A stretch of 49,393 nucleotides of DNA. Origin: an uncultured Victivallaceae bacterium. Its GTDB lineage: Bacteria; Verrucomicrobiota; Lentisphaeria; Victivallales; Victivallaceae. Under the pieces are notes generated by a model. The model saw only the letters and a program-made list of their open reading frames with translations, searched no databases and was not told where the DNA came from. The translations under genes and the position numbers were made by a program. Positions within the stretch are counted from its first letter, which is position 1. Every line of letters starts with the position of its first letter. This document shows positions 28,218 through 43,694 of this stretch, piece after piece. The stretch covers positions 1 through 49,393 of the forward strand of contig CALXXL010000015.1 in NCBI GenBank assembly GCA_944392655.1, in the 5' to 3' direction.

Positions 28218-29231
28218 TTACTCAAGATACTTTGTTTTTATTGCATTAACTGTTATAACAAAATTGGTGACAGTATCAACCTCCCGCCATCCCATGGCGA
28301 TTCCGCTTGCAACAAGACCTCCCGCCGCAATACCCCATCCGACAGGTCCGGCTAACAGTGCGGCGCCGGATGAGGCTGCCATGTATCCGGCAAACGGTAC
28401 AGTAACTCCGGCTAACCCGGCAACTGTAGCGATGGTTGAGGATAATGTTGTATAGAATGCAAACCCGGTAAAAGCGACGGTCGCGCTTAATGCTGCAATT
28501 GCAGCTGCTCCGCTCATGCCGGCGATAGCTAACTTATTATGGATAGTAGAATTGCTGTTAGATTCGATTTGTGTCAGCAGTGCTGTTCTCTGTTCAACGG
28601 TTAATTTGTCCCATAATTCAGCAAAAAATTTTTCCGCAATGGCATATTCCAAATAATATGTACTTAATTTATTGATTTTTGATTCCGGGATGTCGTGTTC
28701 TTCTGCAACCCATTGAACAATGTCTTTATGATAGTCGATATTGTTGTGATCCAGGAACAGATATCTGGTTTTATTGTATCTGCGCCATATCAATTCACGG
28801 CATATATTTTCACTGCTTACCATATTTTTATCTATAATTCCCATATCCATGGCTTTTGCTACAGTTTCTGGCGGAACGTCATTAAAAGTACTTGGTTTTA
28901 AAGGCAGTTCGGCAGAAGCCATATCTTTGTCTTCCGTATATTTATCAAGCGTATCCAGATAAGGCAAATGACCAAAATATTCATCCCTCAGTTCAATATC
29001 GTCCAAACCTTTCAAACTCTGCATGAGCTGGATACGATCCTCTAATGAACATTGATCAAGAAAATTTTTGAAATCAACAGAAGTATCAATTCTGGTTACA
29101 TCAATTCTGGGATAATTATTGAAGATTTGAATTATCTGGGAGTAAAATAAGGTTGCAATTAGCAGTACGGCTAAAATGCAGATGGTAATTTTCCCTGTTA
29201 ATGTGTGGCGTATCCAATGATTGAATTTCAT
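28218..29231 (-). CDS. Membrane protein resembling the YaaW/UPF0174 family
   Basis: The 337-residue protein has an N-terminal membrane helix (about 15-35), a charged helical middle and a long Gly/Ala-rich hydrophobic C-terminal region (about 232-320), including AGMSGAAAIAALSATVAF and GPVGWGIAAGGLVASGIAMGW. E. coli YaaW/UPF0174 proteins end in a similar Gly-rich hydrophobic stretch with TGPVGW, and the segment WVAEEHDIPESKINKLSTYYLEYAIAEKFF is like their middle region. The match is by pattern and only moderately certain; hairpin-type membrane insertion is plausible. It shares a 29-bp upstream element with the S16 protease gene. Confidence 0.5.
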   Translation of the reverse strand: MKFNHWIRHTLTGKITICILAVLLIATLFYSQIIQIFNNYPRIDVTRIDTSVDFKNFLDQCSLEDRIQLMQSLKGLDDIELRDEYFGHLPYLDTLDKYTEDKDMASAELPLKPSTFNDVPPETVAKAMDMGIIDKNMVSSENICRELIWRRYNKTRYLFLDHNNIDYHKDIVQWVAEEHDIPESKINKLSTYYLEYAIAEKFFAELWDKLTVEQRTALLTQIESNSNSTIHNKLAIAGMSGAAAIAALSATVAFTGFAFYTTLSSTIATVAGLAGVTVPFAGYMAASSGAALLAGPVGWGIAAGGLVASGIAMGWREVDTVTNFVITVNAIKTKYLE

Positions 29232-29293
29232 TTCTTCTGTTCCTTTTTTACAACTAAAGATCTGATTAAAATTATTAATGTTATCTACAGAAT

Positions 29294-29322
29294 AACTTAC
29301 TTCTTTAGTATGATATCTGACA
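29294..29322 (-). promoter_or_regulatory. 29-bp element shared with the S16 protease gene (copy 1)
   Basis: 26 of 29 bases are identical to 31553-31581. On minus it opens with TGTCAGATAT and closes with AAGTAAGTT, and lies 62-91 nt before the YaaW-like start. Probably a common promoter or operator. Confidence 0.55.
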
Positions 29323-29638
29323 TTGATTTATAAAAAAACATTGCCATAATATTAGAAAAAATTTTTTAATTGAAATATTCTATCATTAAAGCGGCGATAA
29401 TGAATATCACTATGATACGTGTACAGATAATGGTAAAAACTACCATCGGTAATCGCTACGATTTCTTAAGAGATGATAGCTCTTGCCGTATGAACTTTCT
29501 TGGCAGGACAGCTTGTTTTTATTCACTTCCGCGTTCGCGATTTATTAAAGAGAGGTGTAGATTCTTGCCACAGACTCAACTAGAGTTGCTTTTCTTATTG
29601 AAGTGCCATGCTTTCTTTCAAAGATGGTATTACAGCAG
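29323..29638. other. Gap with no gene recognised
   Basis: AT-rich DNA between the YaaW-like promoter element and the end of the S16 protease gene. Plus-strand open frames here have no ribosome site or recognisable product; decayed coding sequence is possible. Confidence 0.4.
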
Positions 29639-31507
29639 TTATTCGAAAATTATTTTTAAAGCCTTTGCGCTCAATTCCGCTTGCCAATAATAGGGAATTG
29701 CTGTCAAAGGATCTGTTTTTGCTGTTTCCGCCTCTTGGAATTGTTCGATTGAATAAAGGCATACTATACCTCTGTTTGTGCAGGATCTAATGCTTCTTAA
29801 AGCTTGATTTCTTGCAGAAGACATTAAATAATCAAGCCTGTCCGGAGCGCTGTCCAATGGCAGCATCATGGCGTAGGCTGTTGTCAGCAGTTCGATTTGA
29901 GCGATAATGGAGGCCACCTTCTGATATTCCGGATCCGCTACGCCGCGGAGATCATGCATCTCTATCACATTATTAAGCATAGAATCATATATATAGTAAT
30001 ATGAGTCATCAAGGCTGGCTGAGATTGAGCTAGCCATTTCTGGATATTCGTTCAAAAAGACGTATAAATTATTGCATGTCGCCATGGCTGCCTGATAAAA
30101 GAAATTCTCGCAGACGGATAATTTAGAATTTGCTTCAAGCCGTGGTAAAGTTCCTGTTATTTCATCATACATATCAATAAAGTTACTGTATTCAACGATA
30201 AAATTATAAACTGCTGGACGTGATATAAGCTCTAATAAGGCAAATTCCTGTAATTCTTCGTCAGACAATTGCTGCAACAGGTTTTCAGGTGGCAACAGAG
30301 AGGCATAGTATTCACCCATTCCATAAGATTTAGCGAGTCCATTAGGATCGCATAATTGCGCGGAGAATTCACTCCGATTCTCTGCCGAGCGAGAATATTC
30401 ATATGTAAAGCTGAAATCAGCTAATTTTTTATCATTATATCGGCTTAACTCAAGAAGCAGATTATAGTCCGGTCTTTGCCAGGAAAGTAATGCGCTGAAA
30501 TCGGTTGCGGAATCTTGAAAATATTTTTCATAAAAGCTGGGGTTTTGCGCAAGGTTATATGAGTTAAGGCCTATAAATGAAAGCATAATATCATTCAGCG
30601 CCGGCAGAATTTTCCCAGCTATGAAATATTGCTGAGCCGTCTTATATGGTGTTATTATTATATCTTGAAAAAACGAATCTTCAATAAGCTCTTCACGCGT
30701 TGCTTCCGGAATTGCGTTTATCATATTATCAACAGCTTCATTTTTTTCAAGAAATAGTTCTATAAGTGCTTTTTCTGTTGCTTTAGGAATGGCAGAGATT
30801 TTTTTTACATCATCAACCATGATAAATTTTGATGGCAAATCATGCATCGCCGCATATGCTTCTTCCAAATTTTCTGCCAATATAAGTTCAATACCAAGTT
30901 GTTCAGCTTTCTCGGCAAGGTCAATCAGGCTGCCGTCCGGCTGCGGTTCAAAGCGGATGAATGCGGGAATACATACTTTTTTCATGCCGGATTCGGCGGC
31001 GGCTTCAAGTTTGTAGGCAACACCACCAACCGGCCCTATTGTGCCATCTGGCATAATTGTTCCAGTTGCGGCAAAGTCTTCAGGCGGGGTACGCCCGTCC
31101 AAAGCGGAGAGTATGTACAGTGCTGTAATTGCTCCGGAGCTTGGTCCATCAACATTACCGGAAAAATCAATACTTATATGCCAACCGCTTAAGGTCTCGT
31201 TACGTTGTAACGCGGCGCTGACAGCCGCAAGCCATACATTATTACGGATAGTATCTCCGGAGCCTAAAGGAGTGTCGTCAGATGTGGAAACTCTTAAAAT
31301 GTCCGACGAGTTATTATATGTCATAGAAAATTTACTTTTTGAACAACTCTGTGATACTATATTACCATTTATATCGCTTATTACTGCAAGTGTCGGAATG
31401 TTCCATTCATATTTTGTAGAGGTTGTCTCTTCCGCAATACAAAAAGTTGAACTCAGTAAGATAATGAATAGACAGTAAATTTGAAATAATAATTTTATCT
31501 GTTGCAT
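29639..31507 (-). CDS. Exported Lon-type (S16) serine protease domain protein
   Basis: The 622-residue protein has a signal peptide (about 1-25, ending STFCIA) and then a Lon proteolytic domain without the ATPase. The Ser-Lys dyad is S123 in VDGPSSGAITALYILSAL and K166 in GPVGGVAYKLEAAAESG, with TGTIMPDGTIGPVGG and the MKKVCIPA strand between and after. Residues 240-622 are a helical domain of unknown function ending in a conserved-looking YYWQAELSAKAL. Exported stand-alone S16 proteases are known (for example in PDZ-containing Bacillus proteins), but with a different layout. It lies divergently from the membrane kinase. Confidence 0.8.
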   Translation of the reverse strand: MQQIKLLFQIYCLFIILLSSTFCIAEETTSTKYEWNIPTLAVISDINGNIVSQSCSKSKFSMTYNNSSDILRVSTSDDTPLGSGDTIRNNVWLAAVSAALQRNETLSGWHISIDFSGNVDGPSSGAITALYILSALDGRTPPEDFAATGTIMPDGTIGPVGGVAYKLEAAAESGMKKVCIPAFIRFEPQPDGSLIDLAEKAEQLGIELILAENLEEAYAAMHDLPSKFIMVDDVKKISAIPKATEKALIELFLEKNEAVDNMINAIPEATREELIEDSFFQDIIITPYKTAQQYFIAGKILPALNDIMLSFIGLNSYNLAQNPSFYEKYFQDSATDFSALLSWQRPDYNLLLELSRYNDKKLADFSFTYEYSRSAENRSEFSAQLCDPNGLAKSYGMGEYYASLLPPENLLQQLSDEELQEFALLELISRPAVYNFIVEYSNFIDMYDEITGTLPRLEANSKLSVCENFFYQAAMATCNNLYVFLNEYPEMASSISASLDDSYYYIYDSMLNNVIEMHDLRGVADPEYQKVASIIAQIELLTTAYAMMLPLDSAPDRLDYLMSSARNQALRSIRSCTNRGIVCLYSIEQFQEAETAKTDPLTAIPYYWQAELSAKALKIIFE

Positions 31508-31552
31508 CTTCGTTCCTTTTATTTTCTTTAATTTCTAATATCTGTCTATAAC

Positions 31553-31581
31553 AACTTACTTTTTTACTATAATATCTGACA
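31553..31581 (-). promoter_or_regulatory. 29-bp element shared with the YaaW-like gene (copy 2)
   Basis: Twin of 29294-29322 with three substitutions; 45-74 nt before the S16 protease start. Conservation over non-coding DNA points to a common regulator or sigma factor. Confidence 0.55.
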
Positions 31582-31683
31582 CGAATTATCTGAGAAAGTA
31601 GAAAATTTTTATTTTAAAAAAGCTATAAATAATATTGAAAAAATATTCTCTTACATTACCTTAATTTTAAGGAGATAATTATT

Positions 31684-33234
31684 ATGAGTTTTAAACCTGG
31701 CACTTCTTTTCATACATGGAAAATAATTCATCATTGTGGCGGCGGAGCATTTGGAGAGGTATACTACTGTTCTGATATATCCGGACAACATGTGGCGGTA
31801 AAGGTGATCCCAAAGAACCGGTTGGGGAATTACTGGGAACGGGAGTTGACAGGAGTGTCAAGCTATCGGGAAATAACCGGGAAAACAGATGGATTATTAC
31901 GCATTTTTCATGTTTCTGAAGATAGTGAAAGCCTCTTTTATTCAATGGAAGCAGCCGATAACTGCGGTGATGATAATGAGTATCGCCCGGATACATTGTC
32001 GCGAAGACTCGAACATGGATCACTGCCGGTTGACGAGCAGGGCAGGGTGATAAATGATATCTTTGCAGCAGTAAAAAAACTGCATGAGTTCGGATTCGCT
32101 CATTGTGATATAAAACCTGAAAATATTCTGTTTGTAAAGGGAAAACCCAAACTCGGGGATATCGGGCTGGTGTCATCATTTACCGCCACCATGTCTCATC
32201 TTATGGGTACCCTGGAGTTTCTGCCGCCGGAACTGCGTCTGCGTGAAACGGTTGAAGATATCCCGGATAAATCATCCAGGCAGAAGAGCGATCTTTACGC
32301 TTTAGGGAAAGTTATATATTGTATTGTTACCGGAATGAGCGCAGAGCATTTTCCCTCCATCCCGCAGGGATTCAAACCGGCATTGCACAGTAAATTCCTT
32401 TTGCGTTTCGCTTTCCGGTTGTGCGACCGCCAAATCAAGGGGCGAATTGCCGATATCGGCGCGGCGGAACGGGAATTAAGTGAAATTGAACGCAAAACGT
32501 TGTACGGTGAAACCATTGTTGATAAGGTCAAATATTGTTGCGGATGTTTTTCCAGATATGTGCGGGGATGGTTTTCATGGCTTTGGCGTGGGGTTTTACG
32601 GTACTGGCCGATTTCAATTTTAATAATTTTTCTGACGGCGGCAGGCATATGGCGGATTCTGCCTGAGTCTGAATTCGATATTGCTGATGTTAAAACTCAG
32701 GAATTCGTGAATAATAATATTGGTGTGGCAATGACTATGCCGGCACAATGGAATATAATAGATGATGCGTTTAAAGAAGAATTATTTAATGTGAATTCAG
32801 ACGATGTGCCTCAGGAGGTACAAAAATTTATTGAAGTAGCTAAAGAAGTGGCAAGCGATACTCAGGCGGCTATAATATATTGCGGTTATCACAATTATTT
32901 TGCTGACAATGTAATTATACAGGCAATGCCGCCAGGCGCTGAACTTTGGGATTACAGCGATAGTGGATTACGTTTTTATTGGTCATCCATTTTGGAGGCT
33001 GAACTGGGAGTGAAGCCGGAAATATATGAAATAAAGAGGATGGAAAAAGCCGGTAGCCGGTGTATATATATTGATATGGGATACTATTTTGGAGAAATCC
33101 CTGTAAGAGTCAACAATTATTATATTGACAGGGGCGATAAAACGTTGTTGATCAGTTTGACGGCGCGCAAAGACGCGTTCAAGGATTTGAAACCGCAGTT
33201 TGAGGCGGTATTGGCAACTTTAAAATTTATTTGA
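31684..33234 (+). CDS. Transmembrane Hanks-type Ser/Thr protein kinase
   Basis: The 516-residue protein has a kinase domain at about 10-270: G-loop GGGAFGEV (19-26), K40 in VAVKVI, and a catalytic loop HCDIKPEN with D142, where HRD is changed to HCD. The metal-binding DFG is changed to DIG (159-161), then MGTLEFLPPE. A basic, Cys-rich juxtamembrane part (KVKYCCGCFSRYVRGWF) leads to one helix (308-325). The periplasmic domain (335-516) opens with NNIGVAMTMPAQWNI and has a PsbP/DcrB-like look; it is also found in the gene at 34816. Key catalytic residues are present, so activity is likely. First gene of an operon with the sigma and anti-sigma genes; the ribosome site is AAGGAGA. Confidence 0.9.
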   Translation: MSFKPGTSFHTWKIIHHCGGGAFGEVYYCSDISGQHVAVKVIPKNRLGNYWERELTGVSSYREITGKTDGLLRIFHVSEDSESLFYSMEAADNCGDDNEYRPDTLSRRLEHGSLPVDEQGRVINDIFAAVKKLHEFGFAHCDIKPENILFVKGKPKLGDIGLVSSFTATMSHLMGTLEFLPPELRLRETVEDIPDKSSRQKSDLYALGKVIYCIVTGMSAEHFPSIPQGFKPALHSKFLLRFAFRLCDRQIKGRIADIGAAERELSEIERKTLYGETIVDKVKYCCGCFSRYVRGWFSWLWRGVLRYWPISILIIFLTAAGIWRILPESEFDIADVKTQEFVNNNIGVAMTMPAQWNIIDDAFKEELFNVNSDDVPQEVQKFIEVAKEVASDTQAAIIYCGYHNYFADNVIIQAMPPGAELWDYSDSGLRFYWSSILEAELGVKPEIYEIKRMEKAGSRCIYIDMGYYFGEIPVRVNNYYIDRGDKTLLISLTARKDAFKDLKPQFEAVLATLKFI

Positions 33235-33270
33235 CCGCCGTGTAAGAAATGCCATGCTTTACGGTAGTTA
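33201..33270. repeat. Direct repeat A1 (kinase 3' end and downstream DNA)
   Basis: Nearly identical to 35957-36027, covering the last codons (VLATLK), the stop and about 35 nt of non-coding DNA including GTGTAAGAAATGCCATGCTT. Marks a tandem duplication. Confidence 0.85.
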
Positions 33271-33304
33271 GTAGCAGATGAATACTGAAAGGATTATCTG
33301 CTGT

Positions 33305-33907
33305 ATGGCATTCACCACTAAAAAATCGTTATTGGCCAAGGTTCGTGCCGGAGACGAGATCTCCTGGCAGGAGTTTTATGATACCTATAAACCGTTGATG
33401 ATTCTGGTCGGCAATGACTGCGGTTTAACCACGGATGAAAACGACGAGTTGGTTCAGACGGTTATGTGCGAGATTTTCCAGAAAAATATTCTGGATAAAT
33501 ACGACATTGATAAAGTTCCGGATAATGTAATATTCAAATATGATCCGGCAAAAGGGCGGTTTCGCCACTATTTAAAAAAAATTGTCCGGAATCATGCAAT
33601 CAAGCTGTGGTATAAGCGATATAAAGACGTTCCGATAGAGTCTGTTCCTGAACCTGTCTCCAATGACGAATGGGATGCAATATGGAACGATGAGTGGCAG
33701 CAGCATATATTGAATTCTGCTTTGGCTGAATTGAAATTGCGTATTCAGCCGGGGAATTACGCCGCGTTTGAAATGTACGTTTTTCAGAAAATGCCGGTAG
33801 AGGAGATAGCCGATTTACTTGGAATATCAATCGGAGCGGTATACACAGCAAAGAGCCGGTGTTTGAAGATGTTGAAACTGATTATCAGTAAACTGGAGGA
33901 GAAATAA
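33305..33907 (+). CDS. ECF-type RNA polymerase sigma factor
   Basis: The ATG at 33305 gives 200 residues, starting MAFTTKKSLLAKVRAGDEISWQEFY; an ATG at 33278 would add nine residues, and neither has an ideal ribosome site. Region 2 is about residues 20-95 (YKPLMILVGNDCGL, ELVQTVMCEIF, FRHYLKKIVRNHAIKLWYKR). Region 4 is about 135-195, with the helix-turn-helix PVEEIADLLGISIGAVYTAKSRCLKMLK. It should direct RNA polymerase to a set of stress or envelope promoters. The zinc-finger protein starts 3 nt after it and is the likely anti-sigma partner. The upstream kinase may control the pair, as in PVC-type kinase-sigma loci (inference). Confidence 0.88.
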   Translation: MAFTTKKSLLAKVRAGDEISWQEFYDTYKPLMILVGNDCGLTTDENDELVQTVMCEIFQKNILDKYDIDKVPDNVIFKYDPAKGRFRHYLKKIVRNHAIKLWYKRYKDVPIESVPEPVSNDEWDAIWNDEWQQHILNSALAELKLRIQPGNYAAFEMYVFQKMPVEEIADLLGISIGAVYTAKSRCLKMLKLIISKLEEK

Positions 33908-33910
33908 TAT

Positions 33911-34135
33911 ATGGGTTGTTACAGTAAAGAAGAGTTGGATATGTTCCGGCATGGAGAGATGTCGGTATTATCCAGAATCTGCTGCAAAGCGCATTTGAAA
34001 GAGTGTGAGGCTTGTCAGCACCGTTTAGCTGAATTGTGTGAAGATGATCTGCTGGTTAAAGAGTTGCAACAGCGCGTAAGTGTATATGAGAAGATTAATT
34101 TTGATAATAAGAAAATTCTTACTTCCGAATTATAG
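33911..34135 (+). CDS. Small zinc-finger (zf-HC2-like) anti-sigma candidate
   Basis: The 74-residue protein has the anti-sigma zinc-finger spacing H...C..C: KAHLKECEACQHRL (His28, Cys32, Cys35), preceded by SKEELDMFRHGEMSVLSR. No membrane segment follows, so it would be a soluble anti-sigma factor or a zinc-binding co-regulator. It is 3 nt after the sigma gene. A fragment of a second copy of this gene (start region only) lies at 36041-36071, directly before nrdG. Confidence 0.75.
   Translation: MGCYSKEELDMFRHGEMSVLSRICCKAHLKECEACQHRLAELCEDDLLVKELQQRVSVYEKINFDNKKILTSEL
33921..33950. repeat. Direct repeat B1 (start of the zinc-finger gene)
   Basis: Thirty bases match 36041-36071 except for one inserted base and one substitution; includes GAGTTGGATATGTTCCGGC. 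Confidence 0.85.
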
Positions 34136-34146
34136 AGGTGACGGTG

Positions 34147-34419
34147 ATGATTATGATGAAAAAATTACTGCTTGGCGTCGCTGCTGTGCTAATCATGGCA
34201 GTAACTGGTCGGGCTTGTAATTATACTCCACGTGGGCGAATAATTAATGCCACTGTGGCCCTCGTAATTAAGCACTACTTTAATAAAAAATCCGAAGTAC
34301 AAATACCGACTCTGATCAACCCGGAAACCGTTGGCGACCGGAGTGATAAAAAATTCAAGGGCATTATTCAGAAGCGGATAAACACGAATAAGCTAAATAA
34401 TATTGGCAATAAGGAATAA
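34147..34419 (+). CDS. Small exported protein of unknown function
   Basis: The ATG at 34147 (AGAGGTG upstream) gives 90 residues; a GTG three codons earlier lies within the ribosome site. A hydrophobic signal (KKLLLGVAAVLIMAVTG) is followed by a basic tail with VALVIKHYFNKKSEVQIPTLINPETVGD. It is 11 nt after the zinc-finger gene and probably in the same operon. No family recognised. Confidence 0.6.
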   Translation: MIMMKKLLLGVAAVLIMAVTGRACNYTPRGRIINATVALVIKHYFNKKSEVQIPTLINPETVGDRSDKKFKGIIQKRINTNKLNNIGNKE

Positions 34420-34423
34420 ATAC

Positions 34424-34606
34424 ATGAAGATAATAGTCGGTATAATATTGTGCGTCATTTTTTGGAATATTGTTGATAATAATCCTTTCTATACTTTTGC
34501 TCCACCGCTAACGGATTTTGAGGTTCGGGCTTATATTGTATTATTGACTGGTATTGGCGCTATTATTTGGGGAGTGATAGAAATAGCTGATAAGGACAAC
34601 AAATAA
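34424..34606 (+). CDS. Small membrane protein, 60 residues
   Basis: The ATG at 34424 follows TAAGGAATAAATAC and lies 4 nt after the previous stop. The peptide has two hydrophobic helices (MKIIVGIILCVIFWNIV and AYIVLLTGIGAIIWGVI) joined by a short loop with NNPFYTFAPPLTDFEVR. Function unknown; last gene of the kinase-sigma operon. Confidence 0.6.
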   Translation: MKIIVGIILCVIFWNIVDNNPFYTFAPPLTDFEVRAYIVLLTGIGAIIWGVIEIADKDNK

Positions 34607-34618
34607 AAACAGGATTTC

Positions 34619-34751
34619 TTATTTCGAAAACACGGTTTCATTGCATAGCGCAATGGTGTTGCATTAATAGGATTTTAACTTCGGGTTTATGTTCTATTAT
34701 TTGGTTTTTTATAGAGAAAGCGAATCTTGAGAAATTAAGAGACACCGGAAT
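34619..34751 (-). pseudogene. Decayed 3' fragment of nrdG
   Basis: On minus, the last codons read IALCNETVFSK then TAA, against IALCDEAVFSN at the end of the intact NrdG (36078-36614). Further upstream, in a shifted frame, VSLNF and NQIIEHKP match VSLKF and NQRLIEMP of NrdG. A frameshift and small insertions separate the pieces. It is a relic of a duplicated nrdG tail. Confidence 0.75.
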
Positions 34752-34815
34752 TCTGATGTGAAGATTTTGAAAAAAATTTGAACATGGGAAAATATATAGA
34801 AAAGGAGAGACGATT

Positions 34816-35991
34816 GTGATTGAAGAACAGTGTAATAATTGCAGAAATCGTAATACTGCATATTGTATAATTTTTGATGGAAGAAGTTGCCCTGCGTACA
34901 CAGAAGAGATAGACGATACTATATCATCTCATGAAATAGCAGGTGATGCTCCGCCGATTCATTATACCGCAGAAGGTTTAAAGGCAACAACAAAAATTCG
35001 GGGAGGGATTAGATGGTTTTTAATTTTAATTGTACTTATTGGCTTGGGAGGATTATATAGTGCCATCCGCCCAATTGCGACATTAAATATTTCAGAATAC
35101 GGAAACAGCTGGGCGTTTGCATTGGTAGGCATTGTTGGTGGTATAATGACATTTGGCATAGCAATATATACCGCTATCGCCTTTTTTAGAAGAAGCTCCA
35201 ATGCTGTATTTATTGCCACACTTTGCATCCTCTATGTACTTCTTTATGGACTTATGGATGAGGTGATAGCTCTAATATTCAGTGATTTAATTCCAATAGT
35301 AATAGTATCTGGAACAGCAGGTATAATAGGATTTAGCATCGTAGCAATATTTCTTTTCCGTTATCTTGCTCTTTCCAAACAAGTCAGAGAGCTTATTCCC
35401 CAAACATATAGAAAAGTAAGCGGTAAAGATTATATTCTTTCAGCGTTAGCTATTTTAATACTATTACTTTATTCTGCTTTTTCATTCATAACTCATAATC
35501 AAGGTGCCGAGGAGGCAAAAGCATCTGCTTTTTCCAGCTTTGGCATAGAAACAAAGAAGCTGGTAAGTAATGAGCTCGGCATAAAAATGACTGTGCCGGC
35601 AAACTGGCAATACGAAGAATTGCCTTCAGACGATGGTTCTCTGGAGATACAACTGCTTTGTGATTATGGCGCTATGGGGATAGCAGTTTCGCCACAGCTA
35701 GAGGGAAAGCTTGCTTTTATGTGTAGCGACAGTGATTGGCGTTCTATGATCGCCCAAAAATTTGGTGCAAATACGGAAATATATGAAATAAAGAGAACGG
35801 AAAGAAACGGGTGGCCGTGCCTATGTGTAGATTTTGAATTTTATATAGAAGATATCCCGATGAGAGGCAATATCTATCTTATTGATATGGACGCCAAAGT
35901 GCTGATGATAGAGTCGTATGCACACAGAGAAGTGTTCAGCGAACTGAACTCTCAGGTTGAGGCGGTATTGGCAACTTTAAAATCCATTTGA
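34816..35991 (+). CDS. Zinc-ribbon membrane protein with kinase-like periplasmic domain
   Basis: The GTG start (AAAGGAGAG 6 nt before it) gives 391 residues. The N-terminus has Cys-rich CNNCRNRNTAYCIIFDGRSCP (6-26), likely a zinc ribbon. Membrane helices follow at about 60-80, 95-120, 128-150, 155-182 and 208-228. The C-terminal domain (about 240-391) opens with SNELGIKMTVPANWQY and ends EAVLATLKSI; it is homologous to the periplasmic domain of the kinase at 31684, including the EIYEIKR segment. The nucleotide match is strongest at the 3' end. Probably born by joining a duplicated kinase tail to an unrelated membrane protein. Function unknown; same-system partner is an inference. Confidence 0.8.
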   Translation: MIEEQCNNCRNRNTAYCIIFDGRSCPAYTEEIDDTISSHEIAGDAPPIHYTAEGLKATTKIRGGIRWFLILIVLIGLGGLYSAIRPIATLNISEYGNSWAFALVGIVGGIMTFGIAIYTAIAFFRRSSNAVFIATLCILYVLLYGLMDEVIALIFSDLIPIVIVSGTAGIIGFSIVAIFLFRYLALSKQVRELIPQTYRKVSGKDYILSALAILILLLYSAFSFITHNQGAEEAKASAFSSFGIETKKLVSNELGIKMTVPANWQYEELPSDDGSLEIQLLCDYGAMGIAVSPQLEGKLAFMCSDSDWRSMIAQKFGANTEIYEIKRTERNGWPCLCVDFEFYIEDIPMRGNIYLIDMDAKVLMIESYAHREVFSELNSQVEAVLATLKSI

Positions 35992-36027
35992 CCACCGTGT
36001 AAGAAATGCCATGCTTTACTGTAGTTG
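35957..36027. repeat. Direct repeat A2
   Basis: Second copy of 33201-33270, covering the 3' end of the zinc-ribbon membrane gene and the DNA after it. Confidence 0.85.
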
Positions 36028-36040
36028 GCAGTATATAAAC

Positions 36041-36071
36041 ACAGTAAAAAAAGAGTTGGATATGTTCCGGC
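36041..36071 (+). pseudogene. Scar of a second zinc-finger (anti-sigma) gene start
   Basis: Matches codons 4-14 of the zinc-finger gene at 33911 (repeat B1), with one extra base, then runs directly into the end of nrdG. The rest of the gene and the sigma factor are missing from this copy. Confidence 0.8.
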
Positions 36072-36077
36072 GTTGAT

Positions 36078-39425: not shown

Positions 39426-40325
39426 ATGGTTAAAAAGATAGTTTGCTTAATCGGTATTATTACGGTATGTCTGGCCAATGCCATGTCGCAGGAAGATATC
39501 GCAGAAAAAGTTGATTCAGCCTGGCATACATTTACACGACGTTACTATAAGGCTGTGAATGTAACAGGAAATAAAGAACCTAAAGAAAAAATGGTTATGA
39601 CGATTTATCATAACCCCAATATGATTAGAGTTCCAGGTAAATTCAGATACAGGGCTGAAGCATATTATGATGATGAGCGTATTTTAGTAACCTTGTTTAG
39701 TGCTCAAAATGCATTTTTATATCAAAACGGTTCAGATATTGCATACGATGTATCTGAGGAGCGAGATAGGCTGTTCCCATTTGTAAAAAGAATTAGTAAC
39801 TTTTATATTTTATTGACTTCCTATCGCAAAAATTCTATCACAAATTATGAAATAGAAGATACTTTCAGGGGGGAACGACCTTGCTATAAGATCAAAATGA
39901 CTTTTAAGCCTACTGAAGAAACGCTTAAGACATGGGCGGAACTTTCACCGGAAGAACAAACAAAACGCTTTAATAATTCTTGGGGAAGTGTTTTGTTTAT
40001 TGTCGATAAAGAAACTATGTTTCCATATGTATTGAGCAGCTTTTATAACTCCGGGAAACAAGATCTATTCATTGATTTTGGCGAAGTGGAAGTAGTACCT
40101 CAGGATGAAAAACTTTTTGAACTTCCTGAAGGAATGAAAATAGAAAAAGTGCCGCTGAAAGAAGGGCTGCGCAAGATAGCGGCGGCACATTACAATAGAA
40201 TACAATCTGAGACTACAGCTGCTCCTGCAATGAAATCGATATTGATATATTCAATATTGAGCATTGCAGGGGTATTGATTATTATTGTTGCAGTTCGTAT
40301 TTTTATAAGAAAATGCCGAAAATAA
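39426..40325 (+). CDS. LolA-like protein with signal peptide and C-terminal anchor (paralogue 1)
   Basis: The 299-residue protein has a signal peptide (about 1-20, ending NAMSQ), a beta-rich domain (25-240) and a C-terminal helix (about 270-292, SILIYSILSIAGVLIIIVAVRI) followed by basic residues. Motifs such as KEKMVMTIYHNP, YRAEAYYDDERILV, CYKIKMTFKP and MFPYVLSSFYNSGKQDLFIDFGEVEV...LFELPEGM follow the pattern of LolA/LolB-type lipoprotein carriers, although the permanent membrane anchor is unlike them. It is a close paralogue of 42789-43694. The G-rich ribosome site is good. Confidence 0.6.
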   Translation: MVKKIVCLIGIITVCLANAMSQEDIAEKVDSAWHTFTRRYYKAVNVTGNKEPKEKMVMTIYHNPNMIRVPGKFRYRAEAYYDDERILVTLFSAQNAFLYQNGSDIAYDVSEERDRLFPFVKRISNFYILLTSYRKNSITNYEIEDTFRGERPCYKIKMTFKPTEETLKTWAELSPEEQTKRFNNSWGSVLFIVDKETMFPYVLSSFYNSGKQDLFIDFGEVEVVPQDEKLFELPEGMKIEKVPLKEGLRKIAAAHYNRIQSETTAAPAMKSILIYSILSIAGVLIIIVAVRIFIRKCRK

Positions 40326-42788: not shown

Positions 42789-43694
42789 ATGATTAAAAAG
42801 ATAGTTTGCTTAATCGGTATTGTTACGGCATGTCTGGCCAATGCGATGTCGCAGGAAGATATTGCAGAAAAAGTTGATAGAACCGATATGATACTTAGGC
42901 AAACCCACTATAAGGCGGTCAATGTGACTGGTGCTCAAGCCCCCAGAGAGAAAATGATAATGACGCTTTATCATAATCCAGCCCTGGCAGGGGTTGCCGG
43001 TAAATCCAGATACAGAGCTGAAGCATATTATGATGATGATCGCATTTTAGTAATGCTGTTTGGAAACTGGGACGGATTTCTATATCAAAAAGGCTCAGAT
43101 ATTGCATACGATATATCCGACGAGCAAGCAAAGATGTTTCCAATATTATTCCGAATACAGCGATTTTATAATGTGCTGAGGTTCTATCGTAAAAATTCTA
43201 TTGTGAATTATGAAATAGAAGATACTTTCAGGGGGGAACTGCCATGCTATAAGATAAAAGTAACCTTTAAGCCAACCGGAGAAACCCTGAAAGAATGGGC
43301 GGAACTTCCACAGGAAGAACAAACAAGACGCATGAATAACTGGATGGGAGTTGTTGTGTTTGTTGTTGATAAAAAAACGACATTCCCATATGTGTTAAGT
43401 AGTTTTGACAACACCGGCAAGCAGACTATGTTTATTGATTTCGGCGAAGTTGAACTAAAGATTCATGATGAAAAACTTTTTGAACTTCCCGAAGGCATGA
43501 AAATAGAGAAAGTGCCGCTGAAAGAGGTGCCGCGCAAGATAGCTGCGGCACACTACAGTAGAACACAATCTGAAACCACCTCTACTCCTGCAATTAAGTC
43601 GATATTGATATATTCAATATTGAGCATTGCAGGGGTATTGATTATTATTATTGCAGTTCGTTTCCGGGGTAAATTTAAAGCTGGAAGTAAATGA
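42789..43694 (+). CDS. LolA-like protein with C-terminal anchor (paralogue 2)
   Basis: The 301-residue protein is about as long as its paralogue at 39426 and matches it over its whole length, most strongly at both ends (IVCLIGIVTACLANAMSQ; EKLFELPEGMKIEKVPLKE; SILIYSILSIAGVLIII). Differences cluster in 30-130. Signal peptide, beta-rich middle and a C-terminal helix with a short basic tail place the domain in the periplasm. Both copies keep full reading frames, so both are probably expressed. Function unknown beyond the LolA-like resemblance. Confidence 0.6.
   Translation: MIKKIVCLIGIVTACLANAMSQEDIAEKVDRTDMILRQTHYKAVNVTGAQAPREKMIMTLYHNPALAGVAGKSRYRAEAYYDDDRILVMLFGNWDGFLYQKGSDIAYDISDEQAKMFPILFRIQRFYNVLRFYRKNSIVNYEIEDTFRGELPCYKIKVTFKPTGETLKEWAELPQEEQTRRMNNWMGVVVFVVDKKTTFPYVLSSFDNTGKQTMFIDFGEVELKIHDEKLFELPEGMKIEKVPLKEVPRKIAAAHYSRTQSETTSTPAIKSILIYSILSIAGVLIIIIAVRFRGKFKAGSK

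Follow-up and report, generated by a model that had tools for sequence, protein, structure and literature searches.

Do the genes at positions 28218-35991 of this stretch of DNA from an uncultured Victivallaceae bacterium form a single envelope signalling system, and which of them are its fixed parts and which its possible targets? The window is here the whole stretch analysed (49,393 nucleotides). A sequence-only reading had proposed an exported S16 protease, a membrane kinase, an ECF sigma factor, a zinc-finger protein, tiny envelope proteins and a YaaW-like protein as such a system, and all of these were found by open reading frame and profile searches, on the strands and at the places given there, with the kinase, sigma, zinc-finger and tiny-protein genes on the forward strand divergent to the protease and YaaW-like genes on the reverse strand. 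The features are as follows:

28218..29231 (-): YaaW/JukA-like protein, 337 aa, with an N-terminal hydrophobic segment, predicted to be exported or membrane-anchored (JukA profile, hhalign to YaaW)
29294..29322 (-): promoter-like element, copy 1, TGTCAGATATCATACTAAAGAAGTAAGTT (genome pattern search, shuffled-pair comparison)
29639..31507 (-): S16 (Lon-type) protease without ATPase, 622 aa, predicted to be exported, with a Ser123/Lys166 dyad and a helical C-terminal domain (PF05362, AlphaFold model, PDB fold match)
31553..31581 (-): promoter-like element, copy 2, TGTCAGATATTATAGTAAAAAAGTAAGTT (genome pattern search, shuffled-pair comparison)
31684..33234 (+): Hanks-type Ser/Thr kinase with one transmembrane segment and a C-terminal PsbP-like domain predicted to lie outside the cytoplasm (PF00069, transmembrane survey, model)
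33278..33907 (+): ECF sigma factor, probable start 33305 (TIGR02937, alignment of 30 homologues)
33911..34135 (+): ZAS-type zinc-finger protein, free-standing, 74 aa, a candidate anti-sigma with an invariant C-x2-H-x3-C-x2-C and weak anti-sigma matches
34138..34419 (+): tiny protein with a signal-like sequence and no family match in profile searches
34424..34606 (+): tiny hydrophobic protein, 60 aa (open reading frame list, profile search)
34816..35991 (+): sensor-only kinase paralogue, a membrane protein with the C-terminal PsbP-like domain of the kinase but without kinase domain, 45% identical to kinase residues 432-516 (alignment)
35759..36076 (+): duplication scar, in which the kinase 3' end and intergenic sequence run directly into the first part of the zinc-finger gene, the sigma gene missing (repeats D1 and D4)

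The gene at 34816-35991 did not figure in the earlier reading; it ends in the sensor domain of the kinase and lacks the kinase itself. A repeat search showed that 33002-33290 recurs at 35759-36047 and is followed directly by the beginning of the zinc-finger gene (a copy of 33926-33955, reaching to 36076), with no sigma gene in between. These repeats suggest how the gene came by the PsbP-like domain of the kinase, and it is best read as the remnant of a second cassette copy that retained the sensor alone. Outside the locus, the window also holds two genes (39426-40325 and 42789-43694) whose first 30 bases are alike at 29 of 30 positions, and which likely encode paralogous exported proteins.

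Among the 59 ECF loci whose neighbourhoods were fetched, a kinase gene lies within 1.5 kb of the ECF gene in 50 and a zinc-finger gene follows the ECF gene immediately in 44, counts to be read knowing that these loci are mutually related, that some misses are contig ends and that the search profile was built from 23 of the zinc-finger sequences. The order in the set closest to the window is kinase, sigma, zinc finger, and in paralogous modules the sigma gene usually precedes the kinase gene; in two loci (L059 and L061) the kinase and sigma genes come without a zinc-finger gene, as they do in several paralogous kinase-sigma pairs. The three genes do make up a module, one met repeatedly in the class Lentisphaeria. 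Since it recurs so widely, the main objection foreseen for the proposed association, a lack of recurrence in other genomes, does not apply. The earlier reading had asked for a neighbourhood search on S16-kinase-ECF sets, and here the kinase-ECF half held up while the S16 gene, linked in one other genome, did not prove to be a fixed part.

Several other genes were seen around these modules. The kinase-ECF-zinc-finger module of L058 (5882-15441) has as neighbours a dynamin-like GTPase, a metallo-beta-lactamase-like protein and two proteins with Sel1 repeats, one of them caspase-like. Near three modules stands a pair of genes for exported or membrane proteins, about 25-44% identical (L052:15869-17729, L053:10960-13190, L066:968-2886), and related proteins (45-53% identical) occur near kinase-ECF modules with ABC transporters adjacent (L053:566-1498, L060:5837-6763, L061:13030-13953), the latter apparently ATP-grasp peptide maturases. 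An enrichment of Sel1-repeat neighbours was considered and dropped, as the difference was not significant (6/89 adjacent vs. 2/89 distal, p = 0.14). Envelope-type peptidases were also noted next to the modules of L052 (M48), L058 (caspase-like) and L136 (HtrA-type), a suggestive pattern with too few cases for a claim.

The sigma factor itself belongs to the ECF family (TIGR02937, 52.9 bits vs. a curated cut-off of 42.9), and its start is probably at 33305, where the sequence MAFTTKKSLL matches its orthologues, rather than at 33278. Both acidic DxxD positions of region 2.2 (E54 and E/D57) are kept in all 30 homologues aligned, so that binding to RNA polymerase, and a need for a brake, are to be expected of the protein. 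Matches to it were found in 104 of the order's 137 genomes, among them a close set of ~49-65% identity, and those at or above 50% were confined to the same class in our sample of the phylum. In the named genome collection, all homologues but a few called just "uncultured bacterium" bear the names Lentisphaeria, Lentisphaerae, Victivallales, Victivallaceae or Victivallis, which places the window probably in Victivallales or close by; Victivallis vadensis has related sigmas (L180, L199). Sigma factors are few in this genome: beyond the window, it has three Sigma70_r2 matches above cut-off, one of them in a frame of 210 codons, the size of an ECF sigma. In the literature, no paper found tied Lentisphaerae to ECF signalling, apart from a passing mention.

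A brake could be supplied by the next gene. Its zinc-finger family has C25, H28, C32 and C35 invariant in 23 homologues, and H28, C32 and C35 form an Hx3Cx2C signature. A profile search gave a weak match to ChrR (E = 0.018), and the three best PDB matches, each weak alone, are DdvA (E = 0.052), RsiW (E = 0.17) and 3hug (E = 0.18), the last being the anti-sigma RslA with SigL. Hx3Cx2C is the signature of the zinc-binding class I anti-sigmas (PMC7406223), and the protein resembles ChrR, RsrA and RsiW (PMC7406223; PMC4960319) in this motif, in its small helical make-up and in the place of its gene directly after an ECF gene. The soluble anti-sigma candidate of the earlier reading is thus borne out as plausible, by the ZAS signature and by anti-sigmas as the three best PDB matches, weak as their E-values are, and we regard the protein as plausibly the anti-sigma of its cognate ECF sigma. 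Unlike ChrR, RsrA and RsiW, it is a free-standing protein of 74 aa without sensor domain or transmembrane segment, and the kinase of the same operon could be the sensor.

That kinase has a clear catalytic domain (PF00069, E = 9e-26 in a profile search) and a single hydrophobic segment at about residues 308-326. Its C-terminal domain was modelled with a pLDDT of 90.5, and a structure search with this model returned PsbP, LpqN and DcrB folds; this PsbP-like sensor is predicted to lie outside the cytoplasm. Most kinases of the close set carry a C-terminal domain of the same type; those of the paralogous modules bear other C-terminal sequences.

Across the divergent intergenic region, the protease is an S16 family member by its domain (PF05362, E = 8e-9, above cut-off), its dyad and its predicted fold, which matches Lon proteolytic domains in a PDB structure search. 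Ser123 and Lys166 are invariant in six orthologues and stand 43 residues apart as in Lon (S679/K722 in E. coli). The chain has a signal-like N terminus and no match to an AAA+ ATPase (Lon_C alone was above cut-off), which sets it outside the ATP-dependent Lon proteases. It shares with SepM and YlbL a (here predicted) extracytoplasmic S16 domain without AAA+ ATPase, but differs from them in having no PDZ match in the profile search and a helical C-terminal domain of about 400 residues, and it scored 26.7 bits against the SepM model (cut-off 200), outside the SepM/YlbL family. Of the 136 other genomes searched in the order, 5 have exported full-length S16 homologues; one is divergent to a kinase gene (L059), and the remaining ones are unlinked within the stretches fetched. 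A close sigma is also present in four of these five genomes (p = 0.0016, uncorrected for relatedness, the four representing just two genera). With this one linked recurrence, the S16 gene was rejected as a core member of the module.

Two observations were made beside these relatives. In two genomes (L117:5579-7765 and L118:6357-8543), the gene right after the exported S16 gene encodes a Sel1-repeat protein of 728 aa whose N terminus is signal-like. The S16-kinase intergenic sequence L059:2957-3098 is common to two contigs of one related genome (L061:11983-12480 and L120:7750-8083), on one of which it stands before the kinase gene and on the other before an unlinked S16 gene; it contains a GGAGAGG...CCTCTCC inverted repeat, and neither it nor the G132/G133 leader had an Rfam match.

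The YaaW-like protein matches the JukA profile (E = 2.3e-11) and aligns to E. coli YaaW with 96.5% probability over 71 columns (hhalign). It has in common with YaaW and JukA a homologous helical segment and a glycine-rich hydrophobic hairpin, and departs from them in its N-terminal export signal or anchor and in the lack of a second Juk component, no JukB being found among the seven neighbouring proteins scanned. Five other genomes of the order have homologues, which adjoin the module in one of them (L066, directly before the kinase gene), a single linked recurrence on which core membership was rejected for this gene as well. Protease and YaaW-like protein, taken before as parts of the system, are therefore not fixed to it, each being linked in one other genome.

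What these two genes do have in common is an upstream element, TGTCAGATATnATAnTAAAnAAGTAAGTT. The two copies are identical at 26 of 29 positions and the identity is limited to TGTCAGATAT and AAGTAAGTT (10/10 in the first block, 7/10 in the middle, 9/9 in the last block), falling to chance level on both flanks; a best 29-nt match of 26 compares with a maximum of 23 in 2000 mononucleotide-shuffled pairs. Genome-wide pattern searches (2.34 Mb, up to three mismatches) returned these two sites only, and a loose search for TGTCAG-n15..17-GTAAG added two sites, the same number as the control, neither of which lies close before an open frame of at least 120 codons. The shared element suspected from the sequence is thus real and unique to these two genes. 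Its layout, two conserved blocks 15-17 nt apart shortly before a gene, resembles that of an ECF-type promoter. Around the start codon, both leaders have a further stretch in common, AAAAGGAAC-GAAG. Relatives carrying the sigma yielded no copy of the element (a bipartite scan stayed at chance and a near/far comparison was negative), nor did other S16 genes have one before them, and in an upstream-pair scan it appeared, among non-coding pairs of interest, only in the window. It is also absent from the kinase operon of the window, which accordingly shows no sign of autoregulation.

Because neighbouring genes for exported proteins share a promoter-like sequence absent elsewhere in the genome, the trio probably drives a small local programme of envelope care. 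In such a programme, the PsbP-like domain would sense an envelope condition outside the cytoplasmic membrane and activate the cytoplasmic Hanks kinase, which would phosphorylate the sigma, the zinc-finger protein, or both; the ECF sigma, held back until then by the ZAS protein as a cytoplasmic brake, would be freed or activated and would transcribe the two adjacent genes through TGTCAGA-n15-GTAAGTT. Their products, an ATP-independent Lon-type protease and a YaaW-like protein, both exported, would act in the envelope, presumably in its quality control. Both copies of the element precede genes for exported proteins beside the sigma, a second genome has S16 divergent to the kinase (L059) and a third has a YaaW-like gene before it (L066). 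Protease and YaaW-like genes have the look of targets recruited locally. Against this account stand the absence of the element from relatives and from the kinase operon, the rarity of module-linked S16 and YaaW genes, the loci without zinc finger (L059 and L061) and anti-sigma PDB matches at E-values of 0.05-0.2. We would give roughly even chances to this account as a whole, of a kinase-controlled, zinc-finger-restrained ECF sigma with a two-gene local regulon of exported proteins. A narrower version, in which Lentisphaeria-specific control runs in three parts from PsbP-sensor kinase through zinc-finger anti-sigma to ECF release, with exchangeable envelope effectors and the protease and YaaW/JukA-like protein as the whole regulon, is possible and offered tentatively.

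The trio might instead be real and have its targets elsewhere, the protease and YaaW-like genes being neighbours by chance and the element being bound by another regulator or duplicated locally. S16 and YaaW genes rarely adjoin the module, the element is unconserved in relatives, duplication is known within the locus and AAAAGGAAC-GAAG at both start codons is what duplication would leave; however, plain recent duplication would not yield identity in two blocks at ECF-promoter spacing with chance level outside, nor are there further sites in the genome, and we consider this reading doubtful. It is unlikely, too, that the kinase acts on the sigma itself to activate it, on the model of the ECF43 pairs PknT-EcfP and PknS-EcfK, with the zinc-finger protein an accessory or redox modifier rather than the main brake. 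This rival must nevertheless be taken seriously, the kinase being the more constant partner (the zinc finger is missing in L059, in L061 and in several paralogous pairs); T14 of the sigma is invariant in the alignment of 30 homologues, and EcfK is directly phosphorylated (PMC13147305). Yet ECF43 sigmas lack the acidic DAED (PMC8999054) that is retained here at positions 54 and 57, and the zinc-finger gene follows the sigma gene in most loci.

A place for the protease in the signal path was also weighed. The earlier reading had named proteases among the usual parts of regulated sigma release, a role that topology makes unlikely for this one, and cleavage of the zinc-finger protein was rejected on the same ground, the protease having an export signal and the zinc-finger protein being small and soluble. 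With the anti-sigma candidate in the cytoplasm and the protease predicted to be exported, it is likelier that the protease is an output than that it transmits the signal. Trimming of a periplasmic sensor, either that of the kinase or that of its sensor-only paralogue, thereby setting kinase activity, would suit three proteins predicted to meet outside the cytoplasm and the divergent S16-kinase order in L059, but most modules lack a nearby S16 gene and no processing site is known, which leaves it very improbable. We give hardly any credence to the idea that the locus is a defence island against phages in which the YaaW/JukA-like protein serves as effector: next to the JukA match, the kinase domain does match several defence-library kinases, but along the catalytic domain alone, as with any Hanks kinase, and the missing JukB and the export-type N terminus of the YaaW-like protein speak against it.

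The preferred account, a kinase-controlled and zinc-finger-restrained sigma, can be set beside known systems. ECF41 promoters (TGTCACA-n16-CGTC) have neighbouring genes as their only known targets (PMC3426412), and our element is like them in its TGTC-type -35 block, its 15-16 nt spacing and its putative neighbouring targets, but has another downstream block (GTAAGTT), and no C-terminal regulatory extension is seen in the sigma. Kinase-linked ECF systems are likewise a known kind (ECF43, with PknT-EcfP of Vibrio parahaemolyticus and PknS-EcfK of Xanthomonas citri, and ECF59, 61, 62, 217 and 283; PMC8999054; PMC13147305). Like them, the module encodes next to its ECF sigma a transmembrane Hanks kinase whose extracytoplasmic domain is variable. 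Such groups usually have no anti-sigma gene in the operon (PMC8999054), and by their descriptions ECF59, 61, 62, 217 and 283 differ from the module in its zinc-finger candidate after the sigma; ECF43 sigmas have lost the acidic DAED/DxxD motif of region 2.2 (PMC8999054; PMC13147305), which the window sigma keeps; and the module belongs to the class Lentisphaeria, unlike the systems described. By its sequence, the trio is kinase-linked ECF signalling plus a zinc-finger candidate brake, a variant new relative to those systems. Its candidate two-gene regulon with an exported Lon-type protease is directly testable, in a gut-associated lineage whose signalling is barely studied. Control of ECF sigmas by kinases and by anti-sigmas is usually described as a pair of alternatives, and this conserved operon, which holds both, is a natural case for asking whether a Hanks kinase frees a sigma through modification of its anti-sigma.
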